Of a stretch of DNA of 64,000 nt, positions 6,293 to 44,826 are shown piece after piece (position 1 is the first letter of the stretch; each line of letters starts with the position of its first letter). The translations under genes were made by a program, and so were the position numbers. The stretch comes from Rhodobacter sp. SY28-1 (GTDB lineage: Bacteria > Pseudomonadota > Alphaproteobacteria > Rhodobacterales > Rhodobacteraceae), in NCBI RefSeq assembly GCF_005222785.1, contig NZ_STGH01000002.1, positions 558,001-622,000 of the forward strand, given 5' to 3'. The notes beneath the pieces are model-generated. The model made no database searches and was not told the origin of the DNA. It saw only the letters and a list, made by a program, of their open reading frames with translations.

Positions 6293-6295
6293 GAG

Positions 6296-12049: not shown

Positions 12050-12053
12050 GTGT

Positions 12054-16197: not shown

Positions 16198-16677
16198 CAC
16201 CACGCCATGCTCGATAGGGCGACCGCTGAGACGCATCCGCATCTCTTCAGGTGCCCGAGGTGCGCCGGAACAGAGGCGGCCTCCAGCGGTCGCCCTGGAC
16301 TCAGCATACGCGCCGGGTCCGCAGACCCATTTCGTCGTCGTTCGCAATTGTCCAGGCTGGCATGCTCGTGCTCCACGACTTTGGATCTAGCTAGATAGCT
16401 GCGTGGCTTCTTAGCTGACCGGCTGCTCGGTCAGCGGGTTGGTCGTGCTGAACGCCCCAGGAAAGACGGGCCGGTGCGTGCTGTTGGGTTCTTGGACGTC
16501 CAGCTAGCGGAGACGGTCTGGGACACCTGGGAGAGCTTGCTTGGCGGGCACATCTGGTTCCGAGCCGGAGACGCAACTTCGGTCTGGGATGACCTCATCC
16601 CGATCCGTCTCTCCTATATACTATATGCTACTTTTTGTCTGTTACTTGCTATTCTACTGGAGAGACGGATCGGGATG
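16198..16677. repeat. Element A: conserved three-module non-coding element
   Basis: This region shares three modules, in order and orientation, with element B at 35005-35543. Module 1 (16198-16240) is 43 nt with only about six differences from 35005-35047 and contains CTCGATAGGGCGAC. Module 2 (16383-16401) is GGATCTAGCTAGATAGCTG against GGGTCTAGCTGGATAGCTG in B. Module 3 is the palindromic core (next entry). The spacing from module 2 to module 3 is nearly equal (185 and 179 nt). The sequences between modules are diverged. No reading frame is conserved across both copies, so it is more likely a DNA site or structured RNA than a gene. Confidence 0.75.
16586..16677. other. Core of element A: 19-bp inverted repeat around an AT-rich loop
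   Basis: The left arm CATCCCGATCCGTCTCTCC (16596-16614) and the right arm at 16659-16677 are perfect reverse complements over 19 bp, separated by 44 nt of AT-rich sequence with runs such as TATATACTATATG. A second palindrome, GGGATGACCTCATCCC, overlaps the left arm at 16586-16601. Element B has the same architecture, with a matched A:T to G:C change in the arms and the same 44-nt loop length. The core could be a recombination site, a replication or transfer origin, or a long RNA hairpin. Confidence 0.8.
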
Positions 16678-16937
16678 GGTTTCCTCCGGCGCGGTCGTCT
16701 ACCTCATCCACGCTTGTAGAACTCCGGTCGTCTCCTCCTGCTGGAGCTGCTGTTCTGACCATGCGACGTGCGGACAACGAAGCATTCATTGCGGTCCGAG
16801 CTTGACACATCGATGCCGTCGGGTGGCGGTCACATCATCAAAGACCGCCATCATGAGACGTCCAGGGCGGGGATTAGCCTTTCAGGTATCTGGTCCCCAG
16901 ATCGAGCATCAATTCAAGGGACGTCAGTTACTCCGGG
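16678..16937. other. Gap after element A
   Basis: 260 bp between the core of element A and the stop codon of the DUF4386 gene. No gene, no repeat and no clear terminator are seen. Confidence 0.4.
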
Positions 16938-17708
16938 CTATGCCGGATTCTCGTTCAGGCTTTCGAGTGCCTTCCGGTCAAATCCCTTCACCAGCAACCA
17001 AAGCCCCAGCAACAGTTCCCAGAAGAACTCAGGCACAGTGGCGATGATCTGAGCGGTAGAGCCCGCCTCGATCCAGCCCATGACAACGCCAGCGCCTGCG
17101 ACAAGTAGGGCCGGTCCACCGATCAGGCCAAGTAAGGACAGCGCCCTTGGCACAAGCCGGTTCTTCCACATCAGATAGCCCAGCAACAGCCCGTTGCCGA
17201 CCCCGACAACAACACCCGGGCCAAGACGGAACGTCCAGTCGTGCAGTGCGACAAGGGTCTGCCCGCTGGCGACCAGGGCGGCCGGATCCGCATCACCGGC
17301 GTTTGTCCGCAGGGTATTGAGCGCCATCAGGGCTACGATCCCAATTGCAATGAACCCACTTTCAACGAGCCGGGCAGCCACATAGCCCAAGGACAGCATC
17401 TCACTCTGTTTGCGCAGCACGGGGTAAACGGTCAACGCTGTGCCGACATTTGCAGTGATCAGCATCAGTTCCAGCAGGGCGCCGACGGAAATGCCGGTAT
17501 CGAAACCTTCGCCAAGAATGAAAGCCGGGTCGGTCAGCGCCGGGACATAGAAGGTCAGCACTGGTGGGATGGATGTTGCATACGTGATCAGGAACAGCAG
17601 ACCGGTCAGTCGCGCAAGGCGCTGCTCCCCGGACGCTGCACTCGAAACAGGTTCGGAGATTGCGGAACTGCCCGGGGCGACCGCAGAAGCAGAATGCGTC
17701 ATAGTCAT
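16938..17708 (-). CDS. DUF4386-like integral membrane protein
   Basis: A 256-residue protein with about six hydrophobic segments, for example RLTGLLFLITYATSIPPVL near residue 35 and ALLELMLITANVGTALTVYP near 95, and a final FFWELLLGLWLLVKGF. The conserved EQRLARLTGLLFLI start of the membrane part, the GISVGALLELMLI stretch and the pattern of Trp and Gly residues match the DUF4386 family, whose function is unknown. The first 30 residues are Ser/Ala-rich and probably disordered. It is the first gene of block 2, transcribed towards element A. Confidence 0.8.
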   Translation of the reverse strand: MTMTHSASAVAPGSSAISEPVSSAASGEQRLARLTGLLFLITYATSIPPVLTFYVPALTDPAFILGEGFDTGISVGALLELMLITANVGTALTVYPVLRKQSEMLSLGYVAARLVESGFIAIGIVALMALNTLRTNAGDADPAALVASGQTLVALHDWTFRLGPGVVVGVGNGLLLGYLMWKNRLVPRALSLLGLIGGPALLVAGAGVVMGWIEAGSTAQIIATVPEFFWELLLGLWLLVKGFDRKALESLNENPA

Positions 17709-17823
17709 GGATACCTCGCATCGGTTGGGGAATGTCCGCCATCCTGCGCCTTGTTCGACTATTGCGGAACGCGCCGCGTCTGCACGTTATCCATGCATCA
17801 GACGCCATGCACGCTGGCTTGGT

Positions 17824-18726
17824 TCATGGCCTTCCGCCCGATCGCTCGGCACAGACACTGCGGATACATCCCCGCAACCACCGATGTGCGGCGTCGCCAT
17901 CCATCCTTGGATGCCACAGCATGGAAATCGTGAAGGGCACCACTTCAAACGGAAGGTCGAAACTGTGCAGGCCATCTCGCAGACCCTCGGTGTGGCGCTC
18001 CGGCACGGTAGCAACGAGATCGGTCTTGCGGGCCAGTGCCAGCGCCGTCGAGAAGCCGCTGACAACCGTGGCGACCCTTCGTTTCATGCCGGCGGAGAGC
18101 GCCGCCTCGTCAATCTCATCGCTGCGCAAGCCACGGCGCAGGACGAGGATATGGCCAAGGCCGCCATATTTGGCCGTGAAATCTGCGCCTTGGACCAGGG
18201 CGTGACCAGCACGGACCACCCCGATCCACCGGTCTCTAAACAATGGAACGACGCGCAGTTCCGGGGCGGTGCCTTCGTCGAGCACGCCGGTCTCCACGTC
18301 GACCTCGCCCGCACGCAACGGCGTGCTGTCCTTGTCCGGCTTTGTGAGGAACTGCAGGGTCACGCCCGGGGCTTGCGCGGCAATCTCGGACAACAGCCGT
18401 GGCCCGAATGTCTCGGCAAAGCCTTCGCTGCTGCGCAAGGTGAACCGACGGGGCAGCCGTGACAGGTCGAGCGCTTCGGCCGGACGCAACACCGTCTTCG
18501 CCCCCTCGACCAAAGGCCCGACCTGGCTGCGTAGCTCGATCGCCCGTGGAGTAGGAACAAGGTTGCGGCCCGCCCGCACGAGAAGTGGATCGCCCGTCAC
18601 CTCGCGCAGCCTCGCCAGGGCCCGGCTCATCGCCGAAGGGCTGAGCCGCAGTCGCCGCGCCGCCCCTGCCACGCTGCCTTCGGACAACAGCACGTCAAGA
18701 GTGACCAGCAGGTTCAAGTCGGGCAT
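17824..18726 (-). CDS. LysR family transcriptional regulator
   Basis: A 300-residue regulator. The N-terminal winged helix reads LDVLLSEGSVAGAARRLRLS, then PSAMSRALARLREVTGDPLL, the typical LysR HTH. The C-terminal part is the periplasmic-binding-like effector domain. The start at 18726 is supported by GAGG six nt upstream; ATGs further up (18744, 19053) lack a better site. The gene is divergent from the DUF2798/MFS pair, which it probably controls, in keeping with LysR practice. The effector is unknown. Confidence 0.9.
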   Translation of the reverse strand: MPDLNLLVTLDVLLSEGSVAGAARRLRLSPSAMSRALARLREVTGDPLLVRAGRNLVPTPRAIELRSQVGPLVEGAKTVLRPAEALDLSRLPRRFTLRSSEGFAETFGPRLLSEIAAQAPGVTLQFLTKPDKDSTPLRAGEVDVETGVLDEGTAPELRVVPLFRDRWIGVVRAGHALVQGADFTAKYGGLGHILVLRRGLRSDEIDEAALSAGMKRRVATVVSGFSTALALARKTDLVATVPERHTEGLRDGLHSFDLPFEVVPFTISMLWHPRMDGDAAHRWLRGCIRSVCAERSGGRP

Positions 18727-18838
18727 CCCGAGCCTCAAAAGCATGGCGTCAAACGCAAGTATAACATGAGAACGGTGCGCCTTATGCAGTGATTTGTTGG
18801 GGTCTATGTGTCCTTCCACAACAGAAAAGGAGATCACG

Positions 18839-19078
18839 ATGTCACCCCGCTTAGCCCCAGTCCTGTTTGGTTTCATCTTGTCGGCCCTCATGTCCCTCAT
18901 CGTGTCCGGTGTTGCGACAATGCGGAATGCCGGCCTTGTCGACGGCTTCCTCGGCCTCTGGATCAGTGCCTGGCTTCTGTCATGGCTCATCGCCTTCCCG
19001 ACTGTCCTGATCGTGGCGCCGGTGGCTCGTCGACTTGTCGGCAAGCTGGTCAAAACCCCATCCGCTCAGGTGCGGTGA
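18839..19078 (+). CDS. DUF2798-like small membrane protein
   Basis: A 79-residue protein with two membrane spans: VLFGFILSALMSLIVSGVAT near the start, then a second at WLLSWLIAFPTVLIVAPVAR, followed by RRLVGKLV. This two-helix pattern with FP and ARR after the second helix is typical of DUF2798 proteins. ATG at 18839 follows AAAAGGAGATC, a strong ribosome-binding site. Its TGA overlaps the ATG of the MFS gene, so the two are translationally coupled and may act together. LysR is divergent 112 bp upstream. Confidence 0.85.
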   Translation: MSPRLAPVLFGFILSALMSLIVSGVATMRNAGLVDGFLGLWISAWLLSWLIAFPTVLIVAPVARRLVGKLVKTPSAQVR

Positions 19079-20469
19079 TGACGGAAGCCGCACCTTTGAA
19101 AGAGGAGCGCTATTGGCCGCGCCTCGCGGCGCTGTCGCTGGCGATGCTGCTTCCCTCCCTTGGCATCAGCATCGTCAATGTCGCCTTGCCGACCTTGGCT
19201 ACGTCACTTGAGGCGACCATGGCCGAGGTGCAGTGGGTGGTGATCGGATATCTTCTGGCTGTCACCAGCCTGATCGTCAGCGCAGGACGACTGGGCGATA
19301 TCATCGGGCGCAGGCTTTTGTTGCTGATCGGGATCGGACTTTTCGCTGTGGCGTCAACTGCGGCTGCTATTGCGCCCAGCCTTTGGATGCTGGTGGTGTC
19401 CCGTGCGGTTCAGGGCGCCGGAGCTGCCATCATGATGTCACTGACGATCGCCATGGTCGGCGACCTCGTGCCAAAGCACCGCACCGGAAGTGCGATGGGC
19501 CTCCTCGGCACAGTTTCGGCAGTGGGAACGGCACTTGGCCCTTCGCTGGGTGGCGCAATGATCGCCTTGCTCGGGTGGCCTGCAGTCTTTGCCTTCCTCG
19601 CGATCATGGGAGTCCTGGCGTTGCTGGTCGGCCGTGCCCTGTTTCCAAGGGATCTGGCGCCTTCGCAGAAACCATCAGGATTCGATGGCACAGGCACAGT
19701 TCTGCTGGTGCTGGCGCTCCTTGCGGCAATGATCGCGCTGACCTTTGGGGCCCGACTGTCAACCCTCGGACTTTCAGCGGTTGCCGCCGTTGCGTGTATT
19801 GGGTTTGCCGCCTTGATTTGGCATATTGCGCGGACGCCAGTCCCACTTGTTCGGCTCGACCTTCTGCGCGATGGCGGGCTGAGGTCTGGTCTGGTTTCCC
19901 TTATGCTCGTATCATCCATCGTGATGGCAACCCTGGTCGTGGGCCCGTTCTATCTGTCCGGAAGCTTGGGTCTCGGGTCCTTCAAGACCGGCCTTGTAAT
20001 GTCAGTCGGACCAATCGTCGCCGCTCTCGCCGGGGCTCCGGCAGGTCGGCTGGTGGATCGCATCGGAACCTTTCCGGTAACGTCCGGAGGTCTTGTTGCC
20101 GTGATTGCCGGCTCGGTTCTGATGACCGCTCTGCCATCATCCTTGGGGGTTGGCGGCTACCTGAGCGGCCTTGTCGTCATCACCTTCGGATACGCCCTGT
20201 TCCAGGCTGCTAACACGACGGCTGTCATGCAACGAGCCACAAGTGACCGTCGGGGTGTAACATCGGCGTTGCTGGGCCTGTCCCGCAACCTGGGCCTCAT
20301 TTCAGGCGCTTCCGCAATGGGGACGGTCTATGCCTTCGGTCCTAACATCGCGCAGAATCTTGGCATCCCAATGGGCAATCAGGCAGGGCTGACAGCCACC
20401 TTCATCGTTGCCACAGTCCTTGCCGGGACCGCCATCGGCATCACCGTAAAGCATCGATACAAGCGCTGA
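19078..20469 (+). CDS. MFS efflux transporter (DHA2/EmrB-QacA-like)
   Basis: A 463-residue drug:H+ antiporter-type permease. It has about 14 hydrophobic segments. Signatures are LPSLGISIVNVALPTLATSL in the first helix, VQWVVIGYLLAVTSLIV (motif D1), GRLGDIIGRRLLLLIGI (motif A, loop 2-3) and VVSRAVQGAGAAIMMSLT, with GTALGPSLGGAMI as motif C in helix 5. A longer frame from 18808 only reads through the DUF2798 gene. The substrate cannot be told; the divergent LysR suggests induction by a small molecule. Confidence 0.92.
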   Translation: MTEAAPLKEERYWPRLAALSLAMLLPSLGISIVNVALPTLATSLEATMAEVQWVVIGYLLAVTSLIVSAGRLGDIIGRRLLLLIGIGLFAVASTAAAIAPSLWMLVVSRAVQGAGAAIMMSLTIAMVGDLVPKHRTGSAMGLLGTVSAVGTALGPSLGGAMIALLGWPAVFAFLAIMGVLALLVGRALFPRDLAPSQKPSGFDGTGTVLLVLALLAAMIALTFGARLSTLGLSAVAAVACIGFAALIWHIARTPVPLVRLDLLRDGGLRSGLVSLMLVSSIVMATLVVGPFYLSGSLGLGSFKTGLVMSVGPIVAALAGAPAGRLVDRIGTFPVTSGGLVAVIAGSVLMTALPSSLGVGGYLSGLVVITFGYALFQAANTTAVMQRATSDRRGVTSALLGLSRNLGLISGASAMGTVYAFGPNIAQNLGIPMGNQAGLTATFIVATVLAGTAIGITVKHRYKR

Positions 20470-20647
20470 ACTCCGTCGTTTGTCCAGGGCCCCGAAGCAA
20501 GAAGCAGCTTGTTGCCCGTCCCTCTACCCAGCAAAATCTGGACGGTTGGATGGGCGGCACTCTCTGCGGACTGCTTCATATCACGGGGACAACCTGCTCC
20601 ACATGAATCCTGTTTGAAGAAATTCTGGGTTGCCGTAGCATTTTCCG

Positions 20648-21436
20648 ATGGAAGCGGCAGGCATTGGCAGGGTCTTGTTCTGGGAAGGCGGCAGCCTTTG
20701 GCTGGCGCTGATCACCGGAACCATGGGCTGGCATGAGCATCATGCCATCCAGCTTTGCCTGCCGATCCAAGGGACGGCGCAGTTCAAGACGGATCCGGAA
20801 GGCGATTGGATCACCTGCGAAGGAGCGGTGATCGCGCCGGATGTGCCTCATGTGTTTCATGCCCCCGGCAGCGTGGCTGCAAACATCCTTTTCGAGCCGG
20901 AGTCCGCTGTGGGCCGGGGCGTTCTGGCGCGGTTTGGCCGGTCCGGTCTTCATCTCCTGCCAGCATCAGAGGCCCGGGCGCTCGCCCGGCCGATTGGCCG
21001 GGCCTATTTCGCTGGCACCGATGACGCGTCGATGATTGCGCTCGCCAAGCAGGCGGTGACAAGCTTCTCGGGTGTCGATGCGCAAAGGGACGTCGCCGAT
21101 GTTCGTGTCTTGCGAACCATTTCCGAGATCCGGGCGCATCTGGACGAGCCTGTGACTTTGCCCGCGCTGGCGCGCAAGATCGGTCTGTCACCGGGACGGC
21201 TGCGCCATCTGTTTGTGGCCGAGACCGGAGTGTCCTTCCGCCGCTACCTTCTGTGGGAACGGCTGAACCGGGCCCTGTCCATTGGTTTTGGCGGAACATC
21301 CTGGACCGAGGCGGCTTACGCGGCGAACTTCGCCGATTCCGCCCATCTGTCCCGCACCTGCCAGCGGATGTTCGGCCTTGCGCCGACACGGGCAAGGATC
21401 GAATCCCCCCAGTCCCACGCCGCTCTGACGGCCTGA
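20648..21436 (+). CDS. AraC family transcriptional regulator
   Basis: A 262-residue regulator with an N-terminal cupin-like sensing domain (MGWHEHHAIQLCLPIQG, ending in PDVPHVFHAPG) and a C-terminal AraC double helix-turn-helix from about residue 155. The HTH region shows VTLPALARKIGLSPGRLRHL and FRRYLLWERLNRALS, then FADSAHLSRTCQRMFGLAP, the classic second-HTH signature. It precedes the FixH-like/peroxidase genes in the same direction and may regulate them. About 180 bp upstream (20470-20647) hold no gene. Confidence 0.9.
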   Translation: MEAAGIGRVLFWEGGSLWLALITGTMGWHEHHAIQLCLPIQGTAQFKTDPEGDWITCEGAVIAPDVPHVFHAPGSVAANILFEPESAVGRGVLARFGRSGLHLLPASEARALARPIGRAYFAGTDDASMIALAKQAVTSFSGVDAQRDVADVRVLRTISEIRAHLDEPVTLPALARKIGLSPGRLRHLFVAETGVSFRRYLLWERLNRALSIGFGGTSWTEAAYAANFADSAHLSRTCQRMFGLAPTRARIESPQSHAALTA

Positions 21437-21518
21437 AAACAAGATTAGCCCCTTCGTTCAAGCGATGCCCGCGACACCGGCGTAAGTCTCTGGCTATCGC
21501 AAACGAATGGAGCCCTAC

Positions 21519-21965
21519 ATGTCAAACCTCATCACCCGTCGGCGCCTCTTCTGGTCGGTGCCGGTTGCCCTTCTTGCAGTTGGTGGCATTGCCGTCGCGA
21601 AAATGATGCAGCCCCCGCCGGCCGACCTTGACCTGTCGCTAGCGAAGTCCACCGACCAAGGGCTTTACACGGTATCGGTCGAACCGGGCCTGTCGCCCAT
21701 CTCTGTCGGAACCATGCATGGCTGGGTGGTCCAGATTAGCACCCGGGACAGCAAACCGGTCGATCACGCCAGGATCGCCGTTGATGGCGGGATGCCACAG
21801 CACGGTCATGGCTTGCCGACCGAACCGCAGGTCAGCGCCGATCTTGGCGAGGGTCGCTATCAGGTCGAGGGCATGAAGTTCAACATGCCCGGCTGGTGGG
21901 TGGTCAACCTGTCGGTCGATGGCCCCGACGGACCGGACACCGTCACCTTCAACCTTGTCCTGTAG
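21519..21965 (+). CDS. FixH/YtkA-like exported protein
   Basis: A 148-residue protein with an N-terminal membrane anchor (LFWSVPVALLAVGGIAVA after a TRRR motif) and an extracytoplasmic immunoglobulin-like domain. The C-terminal pattern GGMPQHGHGLPTEPQV then GMKFNMPGWWVVNLSV is that of YtkA/FixH-type proteins; the His and Met residues could bind metal. ATG at 21519 has GGAG six nt upstream and was preferred to 21507. It precedes a di-haem peroxidase by 11 bp, so a role in periplasmic redox or metal handling is plausible. Confidence 0.75.
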   Translation: MSNLITRRRLFWSVPVALLAVGGIAVAKMMQPPPADLDLSLAKSTDQGLYTVSVEPGLSPISVGTMHGWVVQISTRDSKPVDHARIAVDGGMPQHGHGLPTEPQVSADLGEGRYQVEGMKFNMPGWWVVNLSVDGPDGPDTVTFNLVL

Positions 21966-21976
21966 GGGGGCAGACA

Positions 21977-23206
21977 ATGCGCACCTCGACCGCCATCCTT
22001 TCGGCCCTAGCCATCGGATCGGCAGCGGCTGCCTACTGGACCCTGACCAAGCCGCAGACTTGGACCGAGGAAGAGACCAGGCTTGTCCTGTCGCTTGGGC
22101 TTGCAAGCCTGCCGCCGCTGCCCGCGGACCCGTCGAATGCCGTTGCCGATGGCCCGGATGCAGCGTCGCTTGGCAAGGCCCTGTTCTTCGACACCCGACT
22201 CAGCGCGAACGGCACGGTCTCCTGCGGAACCTGCCACCTGCCGGAGCGCCAGTTCCAGGACGATCTGCCGCGTGCAAAGGGTGTGGGTGAGACGGCGCGC
22301 CGGACGATGCCGATTGCAGGCACGGCCTACAGCCCCTGGCTGTTCTGGGACGGACGCAAGGACAGCCAATGGGCGCAGGCCCTTGGTCCGCTGGAAAGCG
22401 CGGTCGAGCATGGAACCGACAGGGCCTACATCGCGCATCTTATCGGGGTTCACTATGCCGATCAATACGCCGCGCTGTTCGGACCGTTGCCGACGCTTGA
22501 CGCGGTGCCGGATCATGCAGGCCCTAACGGCTTTGGCACGGTGCTAGATGACTGGCTTGCGTTAGACGACATCCAGAAGGACGCGATCAACCGCGTATTT
22601 GCCAATGTGGGAAAGGCAATCGCCGCCTACGAACGCACGATTACGCCGCAGCCCTCGCGCTTTGACGCCTATGTCGACCGCCTTGCCGCGGGCGAGGACA
22701 CCTCGGGGATTCTGAGTGGCCAAGAAGAAGACGGGCTGCGACTCTTTGTCGGGAAGGGCGAATGCACCAAGTGCCACAATGGTCCGCTCATGACCGACAA
22801 CTTCTTCCACAACACCGGCGTCGCCGCCGTTCCCGGTCTGCCTGATGATGTTGGGAGAAGCTTGGCGGTTGATCAGGTCCTGGCCGATCCTTTCAACTGC
22901 TTGGGACCTTACAGCGACGCTGAACCAGGCGACTGCGCCGAGCTGAAGTTTCTGGGCAAGGCCGGGCACGAGATGATCAGGGCCTACAAGCCGCCATCGC
23001 TGCGCGGGGTTGCCAGCCGTCCGCCCTACATGCACGCCGGTCAGATCGCGACCCTGGGCGAAGTTCTGTTCCACTACAACACCGCGCCCGCCGCCCCGGA
23101 CGGCCATAGCGAGCTTGCGCCGCTGAACCTGAACTCCGCCGAGCTTGCGGCCCTGGAGGCGTTCCTGGGTGCGCTTGATCCGATCGCAAAGGAAGTCCAG
23201 CGATGA
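21977..23206 (+). CDS. Di-haem cytochrome c peroxidase (MauG/Ccp family)
   Basis: A 409-residue exported protein. Two haem-binding sites are visible: CGTCH near residue 80 and CTKCH near 264. The first follows LGKALFFDTRLSANGTVSCG, the standard Ccp opening. PYMHAGQIATLGEVLFHYN near the end is the conserved C-terminal element with a Met that can ligate haem. A signal anchor (TAILSALAIGSAAAAYW) directs export. Such enzymes reduce hydrogen peroxide or, as in MauG, oxidise a partner protein. The start at 21977 follows a G-rich ribosome-binding site; the frame from 21896 lies inside the preceding gene. Confidence 0.92.
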   Translation: MRTSTAILSALAIGSAAAAYWTLTKPQTWTEEETRLVLSLGLASLPPLPADPSNAVADGPDAASLGKALFFDTRLSANGTVSCGTCHLPERQFQDDLPRAKGVGETARRTMPIAGTAYSPWLFWDGRKDSQWAQALGPLESAVEHGTDRAYIAHLIGVHYADQYAALFGPLPTLDAVPDHAGPNGFGTVLDDWLALDDIQKDAINRVFANVGKAIAAYERTITPQPSRFDAYVDRLAAGEDTSGILSGQEEDGLRLFVGKGECTKCHNGPLMTDNFFHNTGVAAVPGLPDDVGRSLAVDQVLADPFNCLGPYSDAEPGDCAELKFLGKAGHEMIRAYKPPSLRGVASRPPYMHAGQIATLGEVLFHYNTAPAAPDGHSELAPLNLNSAELAALEAFLGALDPIAKEVQR

Positions 23207-23958
23207 TCACCCGAACCGTCATCAAAGAGCACTTGGCGCTTGAGCGTCGGACCTTCACCGAATTGGCCGCAGGTTTCACCGCGATCGCCGTTGCCGGGGC
23301 CACGCTTTACAACCTCGGCTTCTTCGCCCCGATCGAATGGAGTCTGATTTCCCTGCTCACGGTCCAAGACCTGCTGATCGGGTCAGCCATTGGCGCGATC
23401 CCGATGGTGGTTTCGGCCGCCGTGGCTGTCGTCCTTGGCCGCCTGATCGTCCTTGCGCCGTCGAACAAGGCCACCGCCTTGGCTTTGGGTATCCCGGCTT
23501 TGGCGGTGACCAGTTTCGGCTTCTTCCACTTCTATTCTGGTCCCAGTCAGTCAACCCTTGGACACATGGCCTGCGGATACCTTGTGCTTGGATTGATCGC
23601 TGCAGGCGCAAATGCCTTGATCAACTGGCGACACACGGCGAACGTCTGGCTGGTGGTGTCGCTTCTCTATATCCCGACGGTCCTCGGGATGACCGACAGC
23701 GCCACCGCGACCGATCCGTCGCGCGCCATGTCGGAAATCGAAACCGACCGCGGCGTGATCCAGGGTCGGATTGTGCGGGTGACCTCCGCCTATGTGCTGA
23801 TCGCGCAAGACCGTGCCATCGTCACCATGCCGATGAACAAGGTGCGCGAGATCCGCTGGTTCTTCGTCGACTCCCCAGCGGCGGACTTCCTGGATGGAAC
23901 GCCGCTGTCTGCCGATCAAGCGTCAGAGGCGGACACGCCGGGTAAACCCCAGTCCTGA
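23203..23958 (+). CDS. Integral membrane protein, function unknown (251 aa)
   Basis: A 251-residue protein overlapping the peroxidase stop by 4 nt. It has about five hydrophobic segments between residues 20 and 165 (for example GFTAIAVAGATLYNLGFFA and ALALGIPALAVTSFGFFHFY). A soluble C-terminal domain (GVIQGRIVRVTSAYVLIAQD, then NKVREIRWFFV) looks like a small beta-barrel. I do not recognise the family. Translational coupling with the peroxidase suggests they work in the same process, perhaps as a sensor or anchor. Confidence 0.7.
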   Translation: MITRTVIKEHLALERRTFTELAAGFTAIAVAGATLYNLGFFAPIEWSLISLLTVQDLLIGSAIGAIPMVVSAAVAVVLGRLIVLAPSNKATALALGIPALAVTSFGFFHFYSGPSQSTLGHMACGYLVLGLIAAGANALINWRHTANVWLVVSLLYIPTVLGMTDSATATDPSRAMSEIETDRGVIQGRIVRVTSAYVLIAQDRAIVTMPMNKVREIRWFFVDSPAADFLDGTPLSADQASEADTPGKPQS

Positions 23959-24056
23959 TCGCTGCGCCCGTTGCACTCACACAAACGCGGGACTTAAATC
24001 CTGAGGTTTCCATATCGCCTTTCTGTCTGTCAGGTGCGGCTAGGTCTTTGCAACGC

Positions 24057-26325: not shown

Positions 26326-26829
26326 ATGAACCAAAGCATGGTATCGGCCGAGGCACCCGGCACCATCTTGCTGTCGGATGAGGTCGTGGACTTCATCGGA
26401 AGCGGCGTAAGCATCATTGTCGGTGTGGTTGGTGCGGATGGACGGGCTCGGGGCGGGCGGGCGCTGGCATCGCGGGTTTTGGCGGGCGGCGCGATCCGCC
26501 TGATCTATCCCGCCGAGGGCAATTCCGCGATCAGCGACACGGCACAGTCGGGCGGGCCGATCGCCGTGACATTCAGCGCGCCGATGTCGCACCGGACGAT
26601 CCAGCTGAAGGCAATGTCCACCAGGGCCGAGGAACCTGAAGCAGATGACTTGAAGAGCCTGACGCACCAGACCGATGCCTTCGCAGCTGTTCTTCGCACA
26701 ATCGGTTATGCGCCATCGTTCGTCAGGGCGTTCTGCGCGCGCAGATCTCAAAGCTTCTGCGTGCTGAGCTTCTTGCCGAATGCGGCTTTTGAACAGACGC
26801 CGGGACCGGGTGCGGGGCGCAAACTGTGA
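26326..26829 (+). CDS. PNPOx-like flavin-binding split-barrel protein
   Basis: A 167-residue protein with the pattern of the pyridoxamine-5'-phosphate-oxidase-like split barrel: LLSDEVVDFIGSGVSIIVGV, GRARGGRALASRV and IAVTFSAPMSHRTIQLKA. Such proteins bind FMN, F420 or haem. ATG at 26326 follows GAGGAAGG; the longer frame from 26233 has no better site. The TGA overlaps the ATG of the next gene, so both are made together. The specific reaction cannot be inferred. Confidence 0.75.
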   Translation: MNQSMVSAEAPGTILLSDEVVDFIGSGVSIIVGVVGADGRARGGRALASRVLAGGAIRLIYPAEGNSAISDTAQSGGPIAVTFSAPMSHRTIQLKAMSTRAEEPEADDLKSLTHQTDAFAAVLRTIGYAPSFVRAFCARRSQSFCVLSFLPNAAFEQTPGPGAGRKL

Positions 26830-28196: not shown

Positions 28197-28562
28197 GTCA
28201 CGGGTCTATGTCCGCCCGGGTTTCCCCCGTTTAAGAAGCTTTTAAGGTTTCGCGAGGGAACACTTAGCGAGCATCCAGCATCCGCGCACAGTAGATGTGC
28301 ACTCGTTCATCAGAACACCGTGATGCGGACGGCAAAGCGCCAGAGGGACTGACCCGGTTGGCGAGGAATGCTTCCGTTTCCAAAATCCAGAGCCGTTGAA
28401 AGGCGGACAAACACTGGCACGACCTGACACCCTTCGGGCTTCGGGCTGGCCCTGGATTTTGCGGTGATGGTGAGCCCGCATCCCGCTTTGGGCTGCGGCC
28501 GCAGGAAGCTGGCCGGCGCGGCATTGCCCGGCATGACGAATTGGAAAAGAAGGAACAGAACC
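28197..28562. other. 366-bp gap before the flavin oxidase
   Basis: No gene is seen. The last 15 bp carry the ribosome-binding site (AGAAGGAAC) of the oxidase. Minus-strand frames crossing the gap are shadows that run into the oxidase gene. A promoter for the oxidase/cytochrome pair is expected here but I could not fix one by eye. Confidence 0.4.
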
Positions 28563-29966
28563 ATGTATATCGAAGATCTCCGCATTCAGGTCAGCGGCCA
28601 TGTCATCGCTGAGGGAGAGGCGGGTTTCACCGCCGCGCGCGAGGGGTTTGTCTGGAACGGGCGCAAGCCTGAGGCGACCCCTCGCGTTATTGTCCAGGCG
28701 ACGACTGTTGCCGACGTCCAGGCCGCCGTGCGCTATGCCGCGGCGAACGGCTATCAGGCTTCGGCCCGGTCCAGCGGGCACAACTGGTCGGGCATCGCCC
28801 TGCAGGACGGGGTTGCGATCGACCTCAGCGCTCTGAACACTGTCACCATTGACCGCCTGAAGCGCATCGCGGAAGTCGGGCCTGCGGCGAAGAACCTTGC
28901 CCTTGCCATCGCGCTGACCGCCGAAGGGCTGGCTTTTCCTGTCGGTCATTGTGGTGACGTGGCGATGGGTGGCTATCTGCTGGGCGGCGGCTTTGGCTGG
29001 AACGAGGGCACCTGGGGCCCGGCCTGCCACCTGATCGAAAAGGCCGAGGTTGTGCTTGCCGATGGGAGCGTCGTGATGGTCAGCGCAAATGACCACTCCG
29101 ACATCTTCTGGGCGCTGCGTGGCGCAGGTCCGCTCTTCTTCGGGATCGTCACGCGCTATTGGCTGCGCCTGATGCCGCTGCCCCCGGCGATGGCAGTGAC
29201 AACCTGGACCTACCCTCTTGCACGGGTGGCCGAGGTGACGGCCAGCATGAAGCGGCTTGCAAATGTCCTGCCCAGCTTTGCCGAAGCCTCGCTGTCGTTT
29301 GCCGCGGCTCCGCCCGCAGCCGACATGGGTGACGCGAAATTCGCGACAGTGATCTTGACGGTCTATGGCGGCTCGATGACCGAAATCACCGGTCTGGCCC
29401 GGAATGTCGGCGATCTGGTGCCCGAGGGGGCGGTTGTCCACACGCCGACCACGCCCATCACCTTTGCGGCGCTTTACGGCATCGTCGACCAAAGCTTCCC
29501 CGATGGTGGACGCTACGGTGTGGACTGTGTGTGGAGCGAAGATGCCGATGCCACCTTTGCGGGCCTTGCCCGGATGGTCGCCGAGGCTCCATCGGTCCAG
29601 TCCAATGCCATCTGCGTGATCTACGGTCGCAACTCGGCCCTGCACCGCGGCCTGCCGGATGCGGCCTTGTCCGTCATCGGTTCGGTCTGCGGGATCATGC
29701 ACGGGACCTGGACCTTGCCCGAGGACGATGCGCAGAACCTGGTCTGGTTGCGCGCTGGAATGGACGCGCTCGATCCGGTGACCAAGGGTCGCTACGTCGG
29801 CCATGCCGATCTGGCACGCCCCGGGCGGATCGACGCCTGCTACAGCGCCGAAGCCCGCATCCGCATCGCGTCGCTTGCCGCGACCTATGATCCGCAGGGC
29901 GTGTTCGGCAATCACACCGTGCGTGACGCTGCCGCCCAGGGCTCTGTCGCACTAGCAGCCGAATAA
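28563..29966 (+). CDS. Berberine-bridge-type FAD oxidoreductase, probably bicovalent flavin
   Basis: A 467-residue PCMH-type flavoprotein. The FAD-binding domain shows ARSSGHNWSG, whose His is the expected 8-alpha-histidyl attachment residue. It also shows FPVGHCGDVAMGGYLLGGG, whose Cys sits where the 6-S-cysteinyl bond forms in berberine-bridge enzymes. The C-terminus PQGVFGNH is close to the usual BBE end motif. Such enzymes oxidise alcohols, sugars or amines with oxygen or another acceptor. No signal peptide is visible, although a cytochrome c gene follows by 22 bp. ATG at 28563 is preceded by AGAAGGAAC. Confidence 0.9.
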   Translation: MYIEDLRIQVSGHVIAEGEAGFTAAREGFVWNGRKPEATPRVIVQATTVADVQAAVRYAAANGYQASARSSGHNWSGIALQDGVAIDLSALNTVTIDRLKRIAEVGPAAKNLALAIALTAEGLAFPVGHCGDVAMGGYLLGGGFGWNEGTWGPACHLIEKAEVVLADGSVVMVSANDHSDIFWALRGAGPLFFGIVTRYWLRLMPLPPAMAVTTWTYPLARVAEVTASMKRLANVLPSFAEASLSFAAAPPAADMGDAKFATVILTVYGGSMTEITGLARNVGDLVPEGAVVHTPTTPITFAALYGIVDQSFPDGGRYGVDCVWSEDADATFAGLARMVAEAPSVQSNAICVIYGRNSALHRGLPDAALSVIGSVCGIMHGTWTLPEDDAQNLVWLRAGMDALDPVTKGRYVGHADLARPGRIDACYSAEARIRIASLAATYDPQGVFGNHTVRDAAAQGSVALAAE

Positions 29967-29988
29967 GCCAGAGAGGGAAGCCAAAGCC

Positions 29989-30534
29989 ATGAACAAAAGG
30001 TTGAAAAGATCCCTCCGGGGCGCAAAGGACATGCGCCCTGAACTGACCGCCACGCTGATCTCGGTGCTGCTTGCGACTCTGGTGCCTGGCAGCGCCCGGG
30101 CCGACGAGACGCAAATCGAGCGCGGTCGCTACCTTGTCCAGATCGCCGGGTGCAGCGATTGCCACACACCGGGCCACTTTCTGGGCAAGCCGGATCTGAG
30201 CCGATTTCTTGGCGGGTCGGAGGTCGGATTCGAGATTCCAGGTATCGGGATTGTCTACGGGCCGAACCTGACCCCGGACGACGCCACCGGCCTTGGGACC
30301 TGGAGCGAGGATCAGATCGTCGCCGCGATCCGCACTGGTGCTACACCCGACGGTCGCGGCCTGGTGCCGGTCATGCCCTGGCCGAACCTCTCGACGCTGA
30401 GTGACGACGACGCCTACGCCATCGCGGCCTACCTGAAGTCGCTCGATCCGGTGGCCAATGATGTGCCTGGGCCGGTTCCACCTGGCGAGCCAGCACCATC
30501 CTTCGTGATGCGCGTCGTCCCTCCGGGCGGATGA
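29989..30534 (+). CDS. Mono-haem cytochrome c
   Basis: A 181-residue exported cytochrome. The signal sequence covers about residues 15-40 (LISVLLATLVPGSARADE). The haem site is CSDCH near residue 55, and a likely axial Met lies in VPVMPWPNL. The C-terminus is a cytochrome helix (DDAYAIAAYLKSLDPVAND). It resembles the small cytochrome subunits that take electrons from flavin dehydrogenases. Spacing of 22 bp and a GAGGGAAG ribosome-binding site make an operon with the flavin oxidase likely, suggesting that it is the electron acceptor, though the oxidase lacks an obvious export signal. Confidence 0.85.
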   Translation: MNKRLKRSLRGAKDMRPELTATLISVLLATLVPGSARADETQIERGRYLVQIAGCSDCHTPGHFLGKPDLSRFLGGSEVGFEIPGIGIVYGPNLTPDDATGLGTWSEDQIVAAIRTGATPDGRGLVPVMPWPNLSTLSDDDAYAIAAYLKSLDPVANDVPGPVPPGEPAPSFVMRVVPPGG

Positions 30535-30577
30535 ACTGCTGGCGGCCCGCCTGACCATCGTCGGGCGGGCTGCACGC

Positions 30578-31966
30578 TCAAGACAACCGACTGCGGTTTG
30601 CAAGCCTTGCCAGCATCAAGCAACTTGTCACCAGCGTTCCGGCCATGAGGCCCGCCCAGACGCCTGCAATGCCTTCAAGCCATGTCGCGCTGAACCAAAG
30701 GCCCAGCGGCGCTCCGACGCACCAGTTACCGGCCAGCGTGTAAACCATCGGAACACGAGTGTCTTTGCGCCCGCGCAACAGGCCGGACGCGCCGAGGCCT
30801 GGGTTGGCGACGAGTTCCATCGCGCCCAGCAAGATCAGCAGCATGACCGCAGATTCGGTTGCTGCAACGCCGACAGCGGTCGGCTCGAAGAAGGCTTGGG
30901 TCAGTGGAACTGCCGCCGCGCACAAGCCAAGGAACAGCAACAAACCGGAAAGCCCCGATAGCCACAGCGCGGCGCCAATCACCCGGCGGCGATGGGCCAA
31001 GTCGCCGGTCGCTTCGACCCGCGCCATGCGCACCATCGCGGCCTGCAGCAAAGCGGCGGGCACCGCATAGGCAACCCCCGCTAAACGCAAGGTCAGCGTA
31101 TGGGCCGCCACGTCTGCAGGACTCAAAGTCGCGGCGTAAAGCGTGGCTCCTAAAAAGATGCCTAGTTCGGCAACCGTCGCGATGCCGATGGGCAGTCCCA
31201 CCTGCAGGACCGGGGCTAGATCGCTCCAGGCGATGCGACCAGACTCGGTTCGCGCCTGCGGTGCAGACCGGCGGGCAATCAGCGTCAGCGTGGCCAAACT
31301 GGCAATCGCCACGATCAGTGTCGACAGTCCTGCTCCGGTCGGACCTAAAGCAGGGATCGGGCCGAAGCCGTGCATCAAAAGGTGGTTGCCGACCGCGTTC
31401 AGCGGCAGCGTCGCCGCAGTGACATAGAGAAACACCCTAGGGCGCTCGGACGCCGTCAGCATCGTGCGGTAAAGCATCACGCCCAGCATCGGGACCAAAG
31501 TCAGCGCCATCGACCGGGTGTAGCCGCGCCCTGCTTCTAGCAATCCCGCGTCCAGACCGAGGAATACCAACCAGTCCGGTGCCGTCCAGACGATTGGGAC
31601 CAGCACGGCGGAGAGGAGAAGGACGATGGAGCGGCCCACCTGCTCCAGCCGCAACCGCCGGGCGTGGTCGGCCCGGGCGACGGCGGCCGTATAGAACGGG
31701 ACAAGCCCGCCAATCGTGCCTGCCCCCAGATAGAAGAGGATCGAATAGAAATCGCTGCCGACTGCCAAAGCCGCAAGTGCTTCGGCGCCAAAGCTGGAGG
31801 AGACCATGAGCGTGTCGGTGATGCTCATGCCCATGTTGATGAGGGCGATGAGCATGATTGGCACGGTCAGCCGCAACATCGCGAGCGGTTCGTCGAGGGC
31901 ACCTCGCAAACGAACGATCAGAGCTGGATTGCGCCCTTGCACGGGGGGAAGGGTTGTGTAGGTCAT
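30578..31966 (-). CDS. MATE family multidrug efflux transporter
   Basis: A 462-residue permease with 12 predicted membrane spans and MATE features: RLTVPIMLIALINMGMSITD in helix 1, DTLMVSSSFGAEALAALAVG, FYLGAGTIGGLVPFYTAAVA, and the second-half repeat LQVGLPIGIATVAELGIFLG. MATE proteins export cationic compounds by Na+ or H+ antiport. The start at 31966 was chosen because the extension to 32269 has no membrane-family sequence. It converges on the cytochrome gene. Confidence 0.92.
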   Translation of the reverse strand: MTYTTLPPVQGRNPALIVRLRGALDEPLAMLRLTVPIMLIALINMGMSITDTLMVSSSFGAEALAALAVGSDFYSILFYLGAGTIGGLVPFYTAAVARADHARRLRLEQVGRSIVLLLSAVLVPIVWTAPDWLVFLGLDAGLLEAGRGYTRSMALTLVPMLGVMLYRTMLTASERPRVFLYVTAATLPLNAVGNHLLMHGFGPIPALGPTGAGLSTLIVAIASLATLTLIARRSAPQARTESGRIAWSDLAPVLQVGLPIGIATVAELGIFLGATLYAATLSPADVAAHTLTLRLAGVAYAVPAALLQAAMVRMARVEATGDLAHRRRVIGAALWLSGLSGLLLFLGLCAAAVPLTQAFFEPTAVGVAATESAVMLLILLGAMELVANPGLGASGLLRGRKDTRVPMVYTLAGNWCVGAPLGLWFSATWLEGIAGVWAGLMAGTLVTSCLMLARLANRSRLS

Positions 31967-32072
31967 GGCTAAGGTCCTGAACGAGAATTCCTCCGGGTCC
32001 TGCCCCTTGGAGACAGACTGGATCAGGGGATGCGCCCGGCGCAGGCATGCCGCCCGCGCCGGTCTGGTGGGG

Positions 32073-33467
32073 TCAGCCCCAGTTCTGGTCGTGGTTTGCG
32101 TGGGTCCGCAGATAGGCACCCGGTCGGAAATGCGTGTCGTAGAACCCGGTATCCAACCGGTGCGCCTGCAGGTAGGTGTTGATGAACACCGCCGGAGCCG
32201 TGGCCGGGAAGCGCCCGAAGGTCGAGAACACATAGTCCGACATGATCGTGGCGATCTCGACTGCTTCATCGTCGATCTCGGCCCCGGAACCGCGCACCGC
32301 TGCAGTTTCGCGGTATTGTCCCCCCTGGCCCGGATCGAAAGGCCCTCCCTTGCCGAACTTGCGCGCGACGACGGCCCTCACTGCTGCGCCCATGTCGGCG
32401 TGGTGCGGCGGAACATGCGCCTCGAACACTCCCGGCAGACCGGTGATGTAGGGAAGAGGGTTGCTTTCCAGCATCTGGAACTGGAAGCCGAGGCCTGGAA
32501 CAGCCGGATCCCCACTAGCGCCAAGGACGACGAAGGGGTTGATCCCGGTATACATCCATCCGCCCAGACCCAGGGCCTGAAGCATCAGCGCCCCCGCGTA
32601 GCAGGCCGTCCCCGTCTCGGTCGCAACATCGGTCATCGCGACCTGCTCCAGGAAGGTCATCGGATAGGCGACAGACATGTTCAGCCGGTGCGAGAACTTT
32701 TCCAGCCCCGGGATCTGGCGTCCGTTTACATCGTCGTAGATTCCCGTCCCGTTCTGGATCAGGTAGAGCAGCAGCAGGATCACGTGCTGCGCCACGTCAG
32801 CCACCGGCCAGATCAGGGTCGAGCCGGGCACATTGGCGCACCAGGTGTTGTGTCCTTCCATATAGGGCATCGCCGCCGGGATGTTCAGCCGGCCGTCGGC
32901 CAGTTTCACGATCCGCTTCCGGTGCGCTTCGGTCCAATCCTTCAGATCCAGGCTGCCGTCGGTCGCCACCGGCACCATGTCCCGCGTTGGCAGGAAGTAG
33001 ACGCCGGTGTCGTCGGTGAAGAAGAACTCGGTGGTGTTGAAGCCGGCAGAGGACGGGAAGCTGCGTCCGCCCGCCGCCGCAGTGTAGTTCGGCAGCTTGC
33101 CCGCATAGTTGGGGTGATGCGCAAAGAGGTTCACCCAGCCAGTGTTCCCCGCGACGGTCGAGATCAGGAGCATCTGTTCGGTCGGGTCCAGCGCCTGGGG
33201 TGCTTCAGTCGAGGTATAGGCCAGCGGCCCGTTCGGGATGCTGGCCCCCTTGGCAAAGCGCCGCGACCTGCGGCCGTGGATCGCTTCTATCAAGGGGAAG
33301 GTCGCGGCCTCCACAAGACCGCGGGAAACGGGAGAATAGCCATCAAGCATCATTTTGCCTTTCGTGGTGAGGGTCTGGCCCTGGGCAAAGCCAAAGCCGG
33401 TCAGGACTGCGCCGGTGGCAGCCAGGGTGGTGCCGAAGAGTCGGCGTCGGGTGAAACGGAACGTCAT
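32073..33467 (-). CDS. Tat-exported protein of unknown function, possibly nitroreductase-like
   Basis: A 464-residue protein. The N-terminus TFRFTRRRLFGTTLAATGAV has a twin-arginine motif and a hydrophobic core, so it is probably exported folded with a cofactor. IEAIHGRRSRRFAKGA followed by ALDPTEQMLLIS resembles the opening of nitroreductase-like proteins (RRSxR), but the rest does not match closely enough for a firm call. His-rich stretches (AHHPNYAGK, AHVPPHHADM, HANHDQNWG) could bind metal. A small DUF1127-like gene lies 12 bp upstream on the same strand. Confidence 0.7.
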   Translation of the reverse strand: MTFRFTRRRLFGTTLAATGAVLTGFGFAQGQTLTTKGKMMLDGYSPVSRGLVEAATFPLIEAIHGRRSRRFAKGASIPNGPLAYTSTEAPQALDPTEQMLLISTVAGNTGWVNLFAHHPNYAGKLPNYTAAAGGRSFPSSAGFNTTEFFFTDDTGVYFLPTRDMVPVATDGSLDLKDWTEAHRKRIVKLADGRLNIPAAMPYMEGHNTWCANVPGSTLIWPVADVAQHVILLLLYLIQNGTGIYDDVNGRQIPGLEKFSHRLNMSVAYPMTFLEQVAMTDVATETGTACYAGALMLQALGLGGWMYTGINPFVVLGASGDPAVPGLGFQFQMLESNPLPYITGLPGVFEAHVPPHHADMGAAVRAVVARKFGKGGPFDPGQGGQYRETAAVRGSGAEIDDEAVEIATIMSDYVFSTFGRFPATAPAVFINTYLQAHRLDTGFYDTHFRPGAYLRTHANHDQNWG

Positions 33468-33479
33468 CGCTCTGCCTGT

Positions 33480-33689
33480 TCAGCCCGAAAAACGCATGGC
33501 GTCGTGGGCGGTCCGGATGGACATCTGGTCCAGCGGATCACGCTCCATCCCGATGTCGCGCCGCATGTGGTCGGACAGCGTGTCGAGGTCGGCCGGTCGC
33601 GCGAGCCGGCGACGGGGCGGGAAGAGGCAAAGCCAAAGCCGCCTTGCGAAGCGGTCCTTGGCAGGATGGGTCAGGGTGGTTTCGGTCAT
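33480..33689 (-). CDS. DUF1127-like small protein
   Basis: A 69-residue basic protein. The C-terminal DLDTLSDHMRRDIGMERDP matches the DUF1127 pattern (LxxLxDhxLxDIGLxR). The middle (RFARRLWLCLFPPRRR) is strongly basic. ATG at 33689 follows AAAGGACG; the longer frame to 33743 has no good start. Known DUF1127 proteins are short and linked to RNA binding and metabolism of phosphate, carbon or nitrogen. It reads into the Tat-exported gene 12 bp downstream. Confidence 0.65.
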   Translation of the reverse strand: MTETTLTHPAKDRFARRLWLCLFPPRRRLARPADLDTLSDHMRRDIGMERDPLDQMSIRTAHDAMRFSG

Positions 33690-33801
33690 TGGTCGTCCTT
33701 TCAACGTCTGGGCCCTATGGCCGCGATGAATGGCAGATCGCACGGCAGCTCAGAGGACGGTGAGGCACGGACTCGACAGAAACGGTCTAAATGTGCCATG
33801 C

Positions 33802-34833
33802 ATGGATATGCCAACACCTTTTGCGCCCAAGAAGATTTCTGTCTGCCTCGTCGCAATCCCCGAGACTGCAGCGGGCGTATTGCACGGGCTTTTCGAGGTC
33901 TTCTCGTTCGTCGGTTTCGGCTGGGAGATGTTGACGGGGTGGCCGCCGGGACCGAGCCGCTTTCTTCCCAAGGTCGTCGCGAGCAGCCATGAGCCGTTTC
34001 GAAACTTGGCCGGATTGCCAATTGCACCCGATTTGACCTTCGCCGAAGCAAAGCGGGCCGATATCGTGATCATCGCGGACTTGGCCGTTGGCCGAGACGA
34101 AGAAACGCACGGTCGATGGCCGGAGGTGGTGGATTGGCTGCGTCAACAGCACGCACAGGGTGCGTTGATCTGTTCGGTCTGCACCGGGTCCCTGTTGCTG
34201 GCTGAGGCCGGCCTGTTGGACGGAGAAGAGGCAACCTGCCATTGGGCCGCAAGCGACCAGATCCGCAGCCGCTATCCGGCAGTCCGCCTACGGCCCGAGC
34301 GCGTTCTTGTCTCCTCCGGGGTAGAGCACCGCCTCGTCACCTCCGGCGGAAACGCCTCATGGACCGACCTCGCGCTCTACCTGGTCGCGCGGTTTTGTGG
34401 CGAGGACGAAGCTCGTCGCACCGCCAAGCTCTTCCTCTTTGGGGACAGGAGCAACGGCCAGGCCCCCTTCGCGGCCCGGGTGCGTCCGGCCCAGCACGAC
34501 GACGCGGCCGTTGGCGCAGCGCAGGCCTGGATCGCGGACAACTACGCCGCCGCGAATCCGGTGGCGGGCATGACTCTGGCCTCAGGCCTGACCGCGCGCA
34601 CCTTCAAGCGGCGGTTCCAAGCGGCAACGGGCTACTCACCCCTGGACTACGTGCAGTCGCTGCGCGTCGAAGAAGCGAAGCAGATGCTCGAGTCTACCGA
34701 TGATCCTATCGACCATGTTGCTTTAGAGGCGGGCTACACCGAGCCCGCAGCGTTCCGGCGCATCTTCAAGCGGTTCACCGGGATCTCACCTCTACAATTC
34801 AGACAGCGATTTCGCCACGTCGCCGTGATGTAG
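33802..34833 (+). CDS. GlxA family (DJ-1/PfpI plus AraC) transcriptional regulator
   Basis: A 343-residue regulator. The N-terminal DJ-1/PfpI amidase-like domain includes ICSVCTGSLLLAEAGLLDGE, with the Cys of the family elbow, then GEEATCHWAA. The C-terminal AraC domain has TLASGLTARTFKRRFQAATG and SPLDYVQSLRVEEAKQML, then DHVALEAGYTEPAAFRRIFK. Start is ATG at 33802 or 33808. It is divergent from the DUF1127-like and Tat-exported genes and may control them. It is the last gene of block 2, before element B. Confidence 0.92.
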   Translation: MDMPTPFAPKKISVCLVAIPETAAGVLHGLFEVFSFVGFGWEMLTGWPPGPSRFLPKVVASSHEPFRNLAGLPIAPDLTFAEAKRADIVIIADLAVGRDEETHGRWPEVVDWLRQQHAQGALICSVCTGSLLLAEAGLLDGEEATCHWAASDQIRSRYPAVRLRPERVLVSSGVEHRLVTSGGNASWTDLALYLVARFCGEDEARRTAKLFLFGDRSNGQAPFAARVRPAQHDDAAVGAAQAWIADNYAAANPVAGMTLASGLTARTFKRRFQAATGYSPLDYVQSLRVEEAKQMLESTDDPIDHVALEAGYTEPAAFRRIFKRFTGISPLQFRQRFRHVAVM

Positions 34834-35004
34834 TCGTGATCGCCAAGGGGAGCTGCTAACGGATACTCTCCACCGGTGAGGCGGACCGGATGTTTCAGGT
34901 CCCCGCGACGGCGCGTCCAAGGTCGTCGGAGCTGCTCATCATTCCGCTCCCTTTTCGAGACGCGACCGCCACTCCACCACCATCCTTGTCGCACTACTTC
35001 TCTA
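34834..35004. other. Gap between the GlxA-type gene and element B
   Basis: 171 bp with no gene. No clear terminator follows the regulator stop codon at 34831-34833. Confidence 0.4.
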
Positions 35005-35543
35005 CACCACGCCAGGCTCGATAGGGCGACTGCTGACCTGCATCCGCGACCCGGGTGGTGGGTGCGGTGCGGTGGAGACAAGCAAGCGTCTGGCGGCCTT
35101 CCAGCGCGATGGACCAGGACACAATTAGGCCCACTGTCGTCGCTCATTAGCCAAAGTCCAAGTCTCGCCACGCAGGTTAAGGTCCGCCTCGCGAAACTGC
35201 TCATATCCGATTGCTTTGCTCACGATGAGGCGTATGTGGCCGAGGTCCTTTGTGGGTCTAGCTGGATAGCTGGTCTGCCTGTTAGCTTGGGAGCTAGGGT
35301 AGACCGGTGCGCCTGGCTTCGTGGGGAGCGTTTCTGGTGGGTGTCTCGGGCGCTCCGGTATCCAGGTGACCCGGCACGTGGTTGGATCGCTATAGGAGCG
35401 TCTTTCGTGGGTTGGACGAGGTTCTTGAACCGGAAACGTATCTCGTGTTTTGGGATGAGGTCATCCCGGTCCGTCTCTCCTAATAGTATATGTATTTGTT
35501 CTTAGGGAAGTTAACGTATTCTACGAGAGACGGACCGCGGGAT
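35005..35543. repeat. Element B: second copy of the three-module non-coding element
   Basis: Module 1 (35005-35047), module 2 (GGGTCTAGCTGGATAGCTGG, 35254-35273) and module 3 (35452-35543) correspond to those of element A in the same orientation. The module 1 to 2 distance differs (207 against 143 nt), while the module 2 to 3 distance is nearly the same (179 against 185 nt). A further copy of ATCCGTCTCTC lies downstream at 35621-35631. Elements A and B bracket block 2 as direct repeats about 18.8 kb apart. Confidence 0.75.
35452..35543. other. Core of element B: inverted repeat around a 44-nt AT-rich loop
   Basis: GGGATGAGGTCATCCC (35452-35467) is the counterpart of the 16-bp palindrome in A, with the centre changed from CC to GG. 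The left arm continues GGTCCGTCTCTCC to 35480. After 44 nt of AT-rich sequence (35481-35524) the right arm is GAGAGACGGACC, followed by CG and GGGAT, so it pairs with a 2-nt bulge. Relative to A, one pair changed from A:T to G:C on both arms. That compensatory change argues that pairing or symmetry is maintained. Confidence 0.8.
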
Positions 35544-35654
35544 AGGTCAGCATTGATTACCGTTCCGGCTCGAAATCCTGGTGGCTCGGGTTTCGTTTGC
35601 TTGTGCGAACTCATACCGAGATCCGTCTCTCGGAGAAAATTCGGTTTTGAGGTC

Positions 35655-44820: not shown

Positions 44821-44826
44821 GACAAC

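Follow-up and report, generated by a model that had tools for sequence, protein, structure and literature searches.

Two non-coding elements share three blocks at the edges of an island module

The analysed window, a stretch of 64,000 nucleotides (nt) of Rhodobacter sp. SY28-1 (contig NZ_STGH01000002.1, positions 558,001 to 622,000), contains two non-coding elements, A (16198–16677) and B (35005–35543; positions are those of the window), which align by blastn in three common blocks, collinear and in the same orientation. Block 1 of A (16198–16240, plus strand) matches block 1 of B (35005–35047, plus strand) with 38/43 identities, block 2 (A 16382–16401, B 35253–35272, both on the plus strand) with 18/20, and the core (A 16585–16627, B 35451–35492) with 38/43 identities and one gap. 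The top ungapped 40-mers of the two elements share 35/40 and 31/40 positions, compared to at most 28 in 300 dinucleotide-preserving shuffles; for block 2, none of 300 further shuffles attains 18 identities, the best reaching 17. Thus, the original prediction, made from the letters of the window, that A and B share three modules in the same order and orientation is borne out. Its view that the sequence in between has diverged holds in part: the three blocks stand out, but some homology is also present between them, for example over ~30 nt immediately 5′ of the core (by eye, from the blastn alignment).

The core of A (16596–16677, plus strand) is a 19-bp inverted repeat with arms at 16596–16614 and 16659–16677 around a 44-nt A+T-rich spacer. 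The core of B (35467–35537, plus strand) is likewise an inverted repeat, with arms at 35467–35482 and 35522–35537 and an A+T-rich spacer of 39–45 nt. As read from the sequence, a short palindrome precedes each core on the plus strand, that of A (16586–16601) resembling that of B (35452–35467). The 4.28-Mb assembly (4,281,633 bases, 11 contigs) has five copies of the arm motif GRTCCGTCTCTC, namely in the four arms of A and B and in a fifth and last copy that adjoins B (35620–35631, plus strand). A cluster of GTTGAC/GTCAAC and GACAACC words follows (35661–35850, strand-neutral); no other such cluster in the window is as dense, and 4/29 of the window's GTTGAC/GTCAAC occurrences fall here, ~120–310 bases downstream of B.

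A six-frame comparison of A with B yields no convincingly common frame, with top scores of 91 on the plus strand and of 86 and 81 on the minus strand, in agreement with the earlier statement that no reading frame is shared. A protein-coding origin was dropped, as these scores are near-equal on both strands and lax Pfam searches of the small frames gave nothing useful. At gathering score, Rfam assigns no family to A or B, its only match in the window being a tRNA. The description of A and B as two homologous, modular non-coding elements outside any Rfam family therefore stands.

A core pattern leads to a phage gene family

Queried with A, the assembly returns, after A and B themselves, a match of A to its inverted repeat (E = 0.0019), followed by matches at E ≥ 0.04. 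With B as query, 1/295 genomes of the family and 1/390 genomes of the order match, each being the window's own genome; these searches scored two candidates per genome, and remote copies may escape them. In plasmids and phages, blastn finds no match to A and one short match to B in each set, judged chance. Pattern scans of viral contigs yield 14 loci for block 1, none for block 2 and one for the core (judged chance), without a relative among them, and the block-1 pattern has no match in ~85,000 species genomes, a set from which the own genome may be excluded.

The core pattern TCCGTCTCTC-N30-60-GAGAGACGGA occurs at seven loci in ~85,000 species genomes, five of which we take as chance. At L032 (Agrobacterium vitis plasmid pAvCG78b) and L036 (Ancylobacter), the spacer is A+T-rich and resembles that of A and B, and ~100–450 bases downstream of the core match lies a frame with the motif G-D/S-R-F-N-I/V-Y. 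Both frames are relatives of one uncharacterised phage gene family (P0001–P0005), hereafter the marker gene. Near the element on the A. vitis plasmid, L032 also encodes an Acb2/Tad1 hairpin-domain protein (1945–2343, minus strand).

The marker gene family comprises ten phage records, all of Rhizobium phages, and nine plasmid records. Six of the latter, from Shinella, Rhizobium, Sinorhizobium, Pararhizobium and Methylobacterium (two), measure 115–119 kb and are typed non-mobilizable, and conjugative types are confined to the three from A. vitis, which argues against the original proposal of a transfer origin. The gene typifies phage-plasmids of ~117 kb, namely pLM21S1, RHEph10, and p5. pLM21S1 is described as a prophage of plasmid-like character that has a RepC-like replication system and is related to RHEph10 (PMC4447125, PMC5537653). 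An origin of the RepC type does not fit the site described below, as a large distance separates repC from the marker-gene element in pLM21S1, p5, and RHEph10.

The model of the marker protein has a mean predicted local distance difference test score (pLDDT) of 80.7 and, in our reading, a predicted C-terminal winged helix. No PDB entry matches at E ≤ 0.001, ArsR-type repressors and TubR being among the first weak matches; two viral proteins match at E ≤ 0.001, neither with a function assigned. Alignment A3 leaves out L046, because the annotated RHEph10 frame reads in another frame. In 385 genomes of the class, a search without a positive control found no marker protein at 1e-6.

Phage-plasmids carry the inverted-repeat site in several copies

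Upstream of the marker gene lies a stretch of 0.5–1.5 kb which is mostly devoid of annotated genes; L041, L046, and L047 contain one small frame each. In the RHEph10 group, an inverted repeat is present in this stretch, along with repeats of GTTGAC and, by eye, a terminator-like hairpin. A script for inverted repeats around an A+T-rich spacer finds one in 17/23 marker-gene upstream stretches, or in 15/21 without L059 and L062, the apparent repeats of the AMS5 and RHEph10 records, three positives lying at the lowest accepted score. Across 20 tabulated sites including A and B, inverted boxes of ~12–20 bp enclose an A+T-rich spacer of 27–45 nt, the script behind the table permitting spacers of 26–49. 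The stems differ between phage groups, and the arm motif of the RHEph10 group centers around GRTCCGTC. The phage-type arm pattern has no match in 385 genomes. In L043, L049, L050, and others, the region 5′ of the marker gene also contains an extended tract with many ATAGAGAG-like words, which ends, in several phage-plasmids, in a terminator-like hairpin (by eye); the tract is possibly a phage non-coding RNA.

The site is not confined to the marker gene. p5 carries three copies: site 1 (39609) precedes the marker gene, site 2 (53399) a gene pair that ends in the terminase large subunit, and site 3 (84610) PhoH. pLM21S1 also has three, one at the marker gene (~63.5 kb), one at the same terminase place as in p5 (78108), and one at ~104.1 kb, ~6 kb before PhoH. 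Two copies each are found in the fetched sequences of AMS5, where they precede the marker gene and the terminase pair, and of RHEph10, where one precedes the marker gene and the other, listed as its third site, lies at 23.83 kb, one gene ahead of PhoH, with the 5′ box alone clear. These counts refer to AMS5 within 30–80 kb, to RHEph10 outside 40–50 and 100–115 kb, and to p5 outside 95–116 kb. In the literature searched on these phage-plasmids (PMC4447125, PMC5537653, and PMC10783043 among it), we found no description of the repeat.

p5 and RHEph10 additionally contain a second inverted repeat (near 5170 in L067 and near 10384 in L068) with an A+T-rich loop containing TAGTAAGTAAA and GCGCTT in an arm, at most about 1 kb from a glutaredoxin gene.

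The core of A and B resembles the phage sites in both search directions

A profile of seven phage elements, found via the marker gene and not via A or B, has its top match in the window at B (15.8 bits, E = 5e-5), compared to 6.3 bits as the best score in 40 shuffled windows. Restricted to the core, this profile scores highest in the window at B (16.2 bits, E = 3e-4), with A (12.6 bits, E = 0.004) in second place, the top of 40 shuffled windows being 7.0 bits. At A, the palindrome is matched on the minus strand (16692–16606, 12.6 bits) as well as on the plus strand (16584–16620, 8.7 bits). The phage-element profiles match 35459–35578 at B, and a first, eight-element profile also ranks B top in the window (35461–35578, 14.5 bits, E = 1.2e-4).

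In the reverse direction, a profile of the A and B cores matches 9/14 related records but 0/7 control contigs at E ≤ 5. E values are 3e-6 for Ancylobacter, 9e-5 for A. vitis, 0.15 and 0.36 for two RHEph10 pieces, and 4 for pLM21S1; L061, L060, and the two p5 pieces are matched as well, the latter at all three sites. The likeness to A and B is thus clear for the RHEph10 group, and sequence comparison does not extend it to the Methylobacterium and B1VFA groups. In common with the RHEph10 and pLM21S1 sites, A and B have inverted boxes and an A+T-rich spacer of 27–45 nt, and they share a GRTCCGTC-like arm motif with the RHEph10 group. They differ by the added blocks 1 and 2, by their location in a chromosomal island, and by the lack of a phage operon downstream. 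Elements of the RHEph10 type also carry GTTGAC repeats, but on the opposite side of the inverted repeat compared to B. The original prediction had named an end-to-end match to a known transposon, phage or plasmid element as speaking against it; such a match is found for the core, which homology explains, and not for the remainder of A and B.

A promoter/operator-like site as the preferred interpretation

Beyond the directly observed core homology, core recurrence, and site positions in phage-plasmids, our preferred interpretation, which we hold with about even confidence, is that A and B represent, in stranded form, a promoter/operator-like control site carried in multiple copies by ~117-kb phage-plasmids of the RHEph10/pLM21S1 kind. 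The sites head lytic blocks of a temperate phage-plasmid, which suggests a promoter under operator control. Moreover, the boxes of any one phage resemble each other but not those of other phage groups, a pattern that immunity-type specificity would produce. The site would accordingly comprise a promoter flanked by operator boxes that a phage protein recognizes, and the lytic blocks may be silenced or switched together via these sites. A and B may have arrived with a past visit of a phage-plasmid. As no phage gene is found and neither element has an operon reading away from it, A and B are probably relics of this phage-plasmid, or at most decoys.

Several observations weigh against this interpretation. 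The script detects no repeat in six of the 23 upstream stretches (L041, L043, L044, L049, L052, and L057), L044 and L057 being 559 and about 250 bases long, respectively. At the marker gene of pLM21S1, the 5′ box is decayed, and the TATATA-like word that often lies near the downstream box of the spacer was recognized by eye. Four of the five scanned phage-plasmid stretches also yield one inverted repeat of different sequence. The eight-element profile reports no match at A, reaches 11.2 bits in one of 40 shuffles, and took in L042 (A. vitis), itself found by the A/B pattern, while the A+B profile misses 5/14 related records (AMS5, L043, L055, L056, and L058). For blocks 1 and 2, the best matches in the 23 phage stretches are no better than those of shuffles, which leaves half of A and B unexplained. 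The marker gene is not in the own assembly, where a single match of 18 bits (E = 0.0035) was obtained. Further, compared with the frames of pLM21S1, p5 (1–95 kb), RHEph10 (50–100 kb), and AMS5 (30–80 kb), the window contains no structural gene of a phage-plasmid; the only matches are a regulator-like frame at 44.8–45.2 kb and a few weak short ones. Finally, the spacing from box to box varies and, consequently, rigid bridging is not favored.

The same architecture may serve partition instead. Phage N15 has several inverted-repeat centromeres near phage control regions, and dispersed centromeres of this type would look much like the phage-plasmid sites. We regard it as unlikely, but worth keeping in view, that the sites are dispersed centromere-like elements, with A and B as stranded copies. 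In line with this notion are the inverted boxes with their A+T-rich spacer, present two or three times in every one of the four replicons inspected, the genes for ParA and ParB-like proteins in pLM21S1, p5, and AMS5, and the gene behind one site, whose predicted C-terminal winged helix shows weak likeness to TubR among others. In contrast, the sites lie at the starts of gene blocks and at variable spacing, and the fold matches are weak, with no PDB match at E ≤ 0.001. The dispersed centromeres of N15 and the dispersed operators of P1 resemble the A/B-type sites in their several copies at phage-plasmid control regions and in the specificity of their box sequences, a likeness of layout and not of compared sequences. 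Dispersed control sites of phage-plasmids are a known class.

Alternatively, it may be the pairing of the arms which is under selection, the stem sequence being free, in a DNA cruciform or an RNA hairpin, such as an RNase III processing site, before phage operons. Although the stems vary between phage groups, the two arms of a site still pair with each other, with a value of 0.89 for own arms compared to 0.35 for arms of different sites, the latter lowered by register and by the selection of sites according to their pairing. One box position is changed in both arms between A and B, forming A-T in one element and G-C in the other (by eye), and p5 site 3 pairs with itself at 1.0, compared to 0.79 and 0.86 with sites 1 and 2. 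On the other hand, the arms of p5 sites 1 and 2 pair across sites about as well as within them (0.86–0.93), the 5′ arm of AMS5 site 2 is closer to site 1 than to its own 3′ arm (by eye), and the third RHEph10 site has one clear box. The interchangeable p5 boxes, the one-box RHEph10 site, and the resemblance of AMS5 site 2 to site 1 in its 5′ box point somewhat more to protein-binding boxes than to strict pairing, and we consider a pairing structure rather doubtful. No convincing IHF or CtrA site was seen by eye in the spacer.

The analysis reveals a repeated site in one group of phage-plasmids, the marker gene of which is present in records of Rhizobium, Sinorhizobium, Shinella, Pararhizobium, and Methylobacterium; behind one copy of the site stands an uncharacterised gene with a predicted winged helix. 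How these phage-plasmids control lysis/lysogeny or partition thereby becomes directly testable. A and B further suggest that chromosomes can retain such sites without the phage.

A and B in the island

The DNA to the right of ~36.26–36.31 kb is common to congeners, which places B at the right edge of the island. A and B bracket block 2 of the island as direct repeats, as predicted, and B in addition marks this edge. Unlike the phage sites, neither stands in front of a phage gene block, as the genes to their right (16938–17708 for A, 36262–37263 for B) read towards the elements. The regulator-like frame (44803–45294) shares 42% identity over 106 residues with a pLM21S1 regulator near repC and lies close to tRNA-Ser; as a trace of a phage-plasmid it was set aside, such regulators being a large class.

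The bracketing of block 2, together with a resolvase N-terminal domain gene that starts at 15726, left of A, speaks for recombination sites. The two copies, however, are diverged homologues, and no recombinase is annotated beside the fetched phage sites, so that this proposal gains no support. A structured RNA fares no better. Lax Rfam searches give ten matches at A and three at B, all under the family cut-offs, and seven of the ten at A are microRNA models on the core hairpin. The fold of A is more stable than its shuffles (z = −3.45), but that of B reaches only z = −1.83, with 6/100 shuffles equally good. Over the whole elements, the core pairs within each site; a 13-bp inverted repeat that begins in block 1 of A (arms 16216–16228 and 16284–16296, plus strand) is missing in B (by eye) and, consequently, the block-1 part shows no conserved folding. 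Taken as a group, recombination sites, transfer sites, and structured RNA are very improbable. The idea of a retron, raised by TTAGC preceding the stem, was dropped, as no reverse transcriptase is among the scanned frames; the assembly was not searched for one.

A is also flanked by traces of a mobile element. To its right lies the remnant of the upstream end of an insertion sequence (IS; 16801–16843, minus strand), which we take to be of the IS110/IS1111 family, and to its left an inverted copy of the 12-nt motif of this end, CACCCGACGGCA (16097–16108, plus strand). The end is matched in 8/32 genomes of the genus, including the own, and is multi-copy in some congeners. A and B could thus be old, decayed copies of a mobile element, their common blocks being passenger remains in an IS110/IS1111-like remnant. 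The bracketing of A speaks for such an origin, and the end remnant at its right is where the resemblance to this family lies; but the 12-nt motif (≤1 mismatch) occurs nowhere near B, which has no such end, the transposase of the congener has no match at A by tblastn, and the likeness to the phage sites would be left unexplained. We therefore consider this origin improbable.

Returning to the phage-plasmid control site, A and B might act as chromosomal decoys of this site or of a partition site, titrating the regulator or the centromere-binding protein of an invader and thereby blocking its maintenance or lytic switch. Such a role, which is possible through the company of a Mza-type defence locus in the island, appears quite improbable. 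This locus lies left of A, where the resolvase gene is also found, and spans 4246–13529, with matches to the MzaB, MzaC, MzaD, and MzaE models, a cytosine methyltransferase, and Vsr. On the side of B, a short frame (35884–36018, minus strand) located past the GTTGAC cluster and before the edge of the island has a weak AP2-domain match (E = 0.8).

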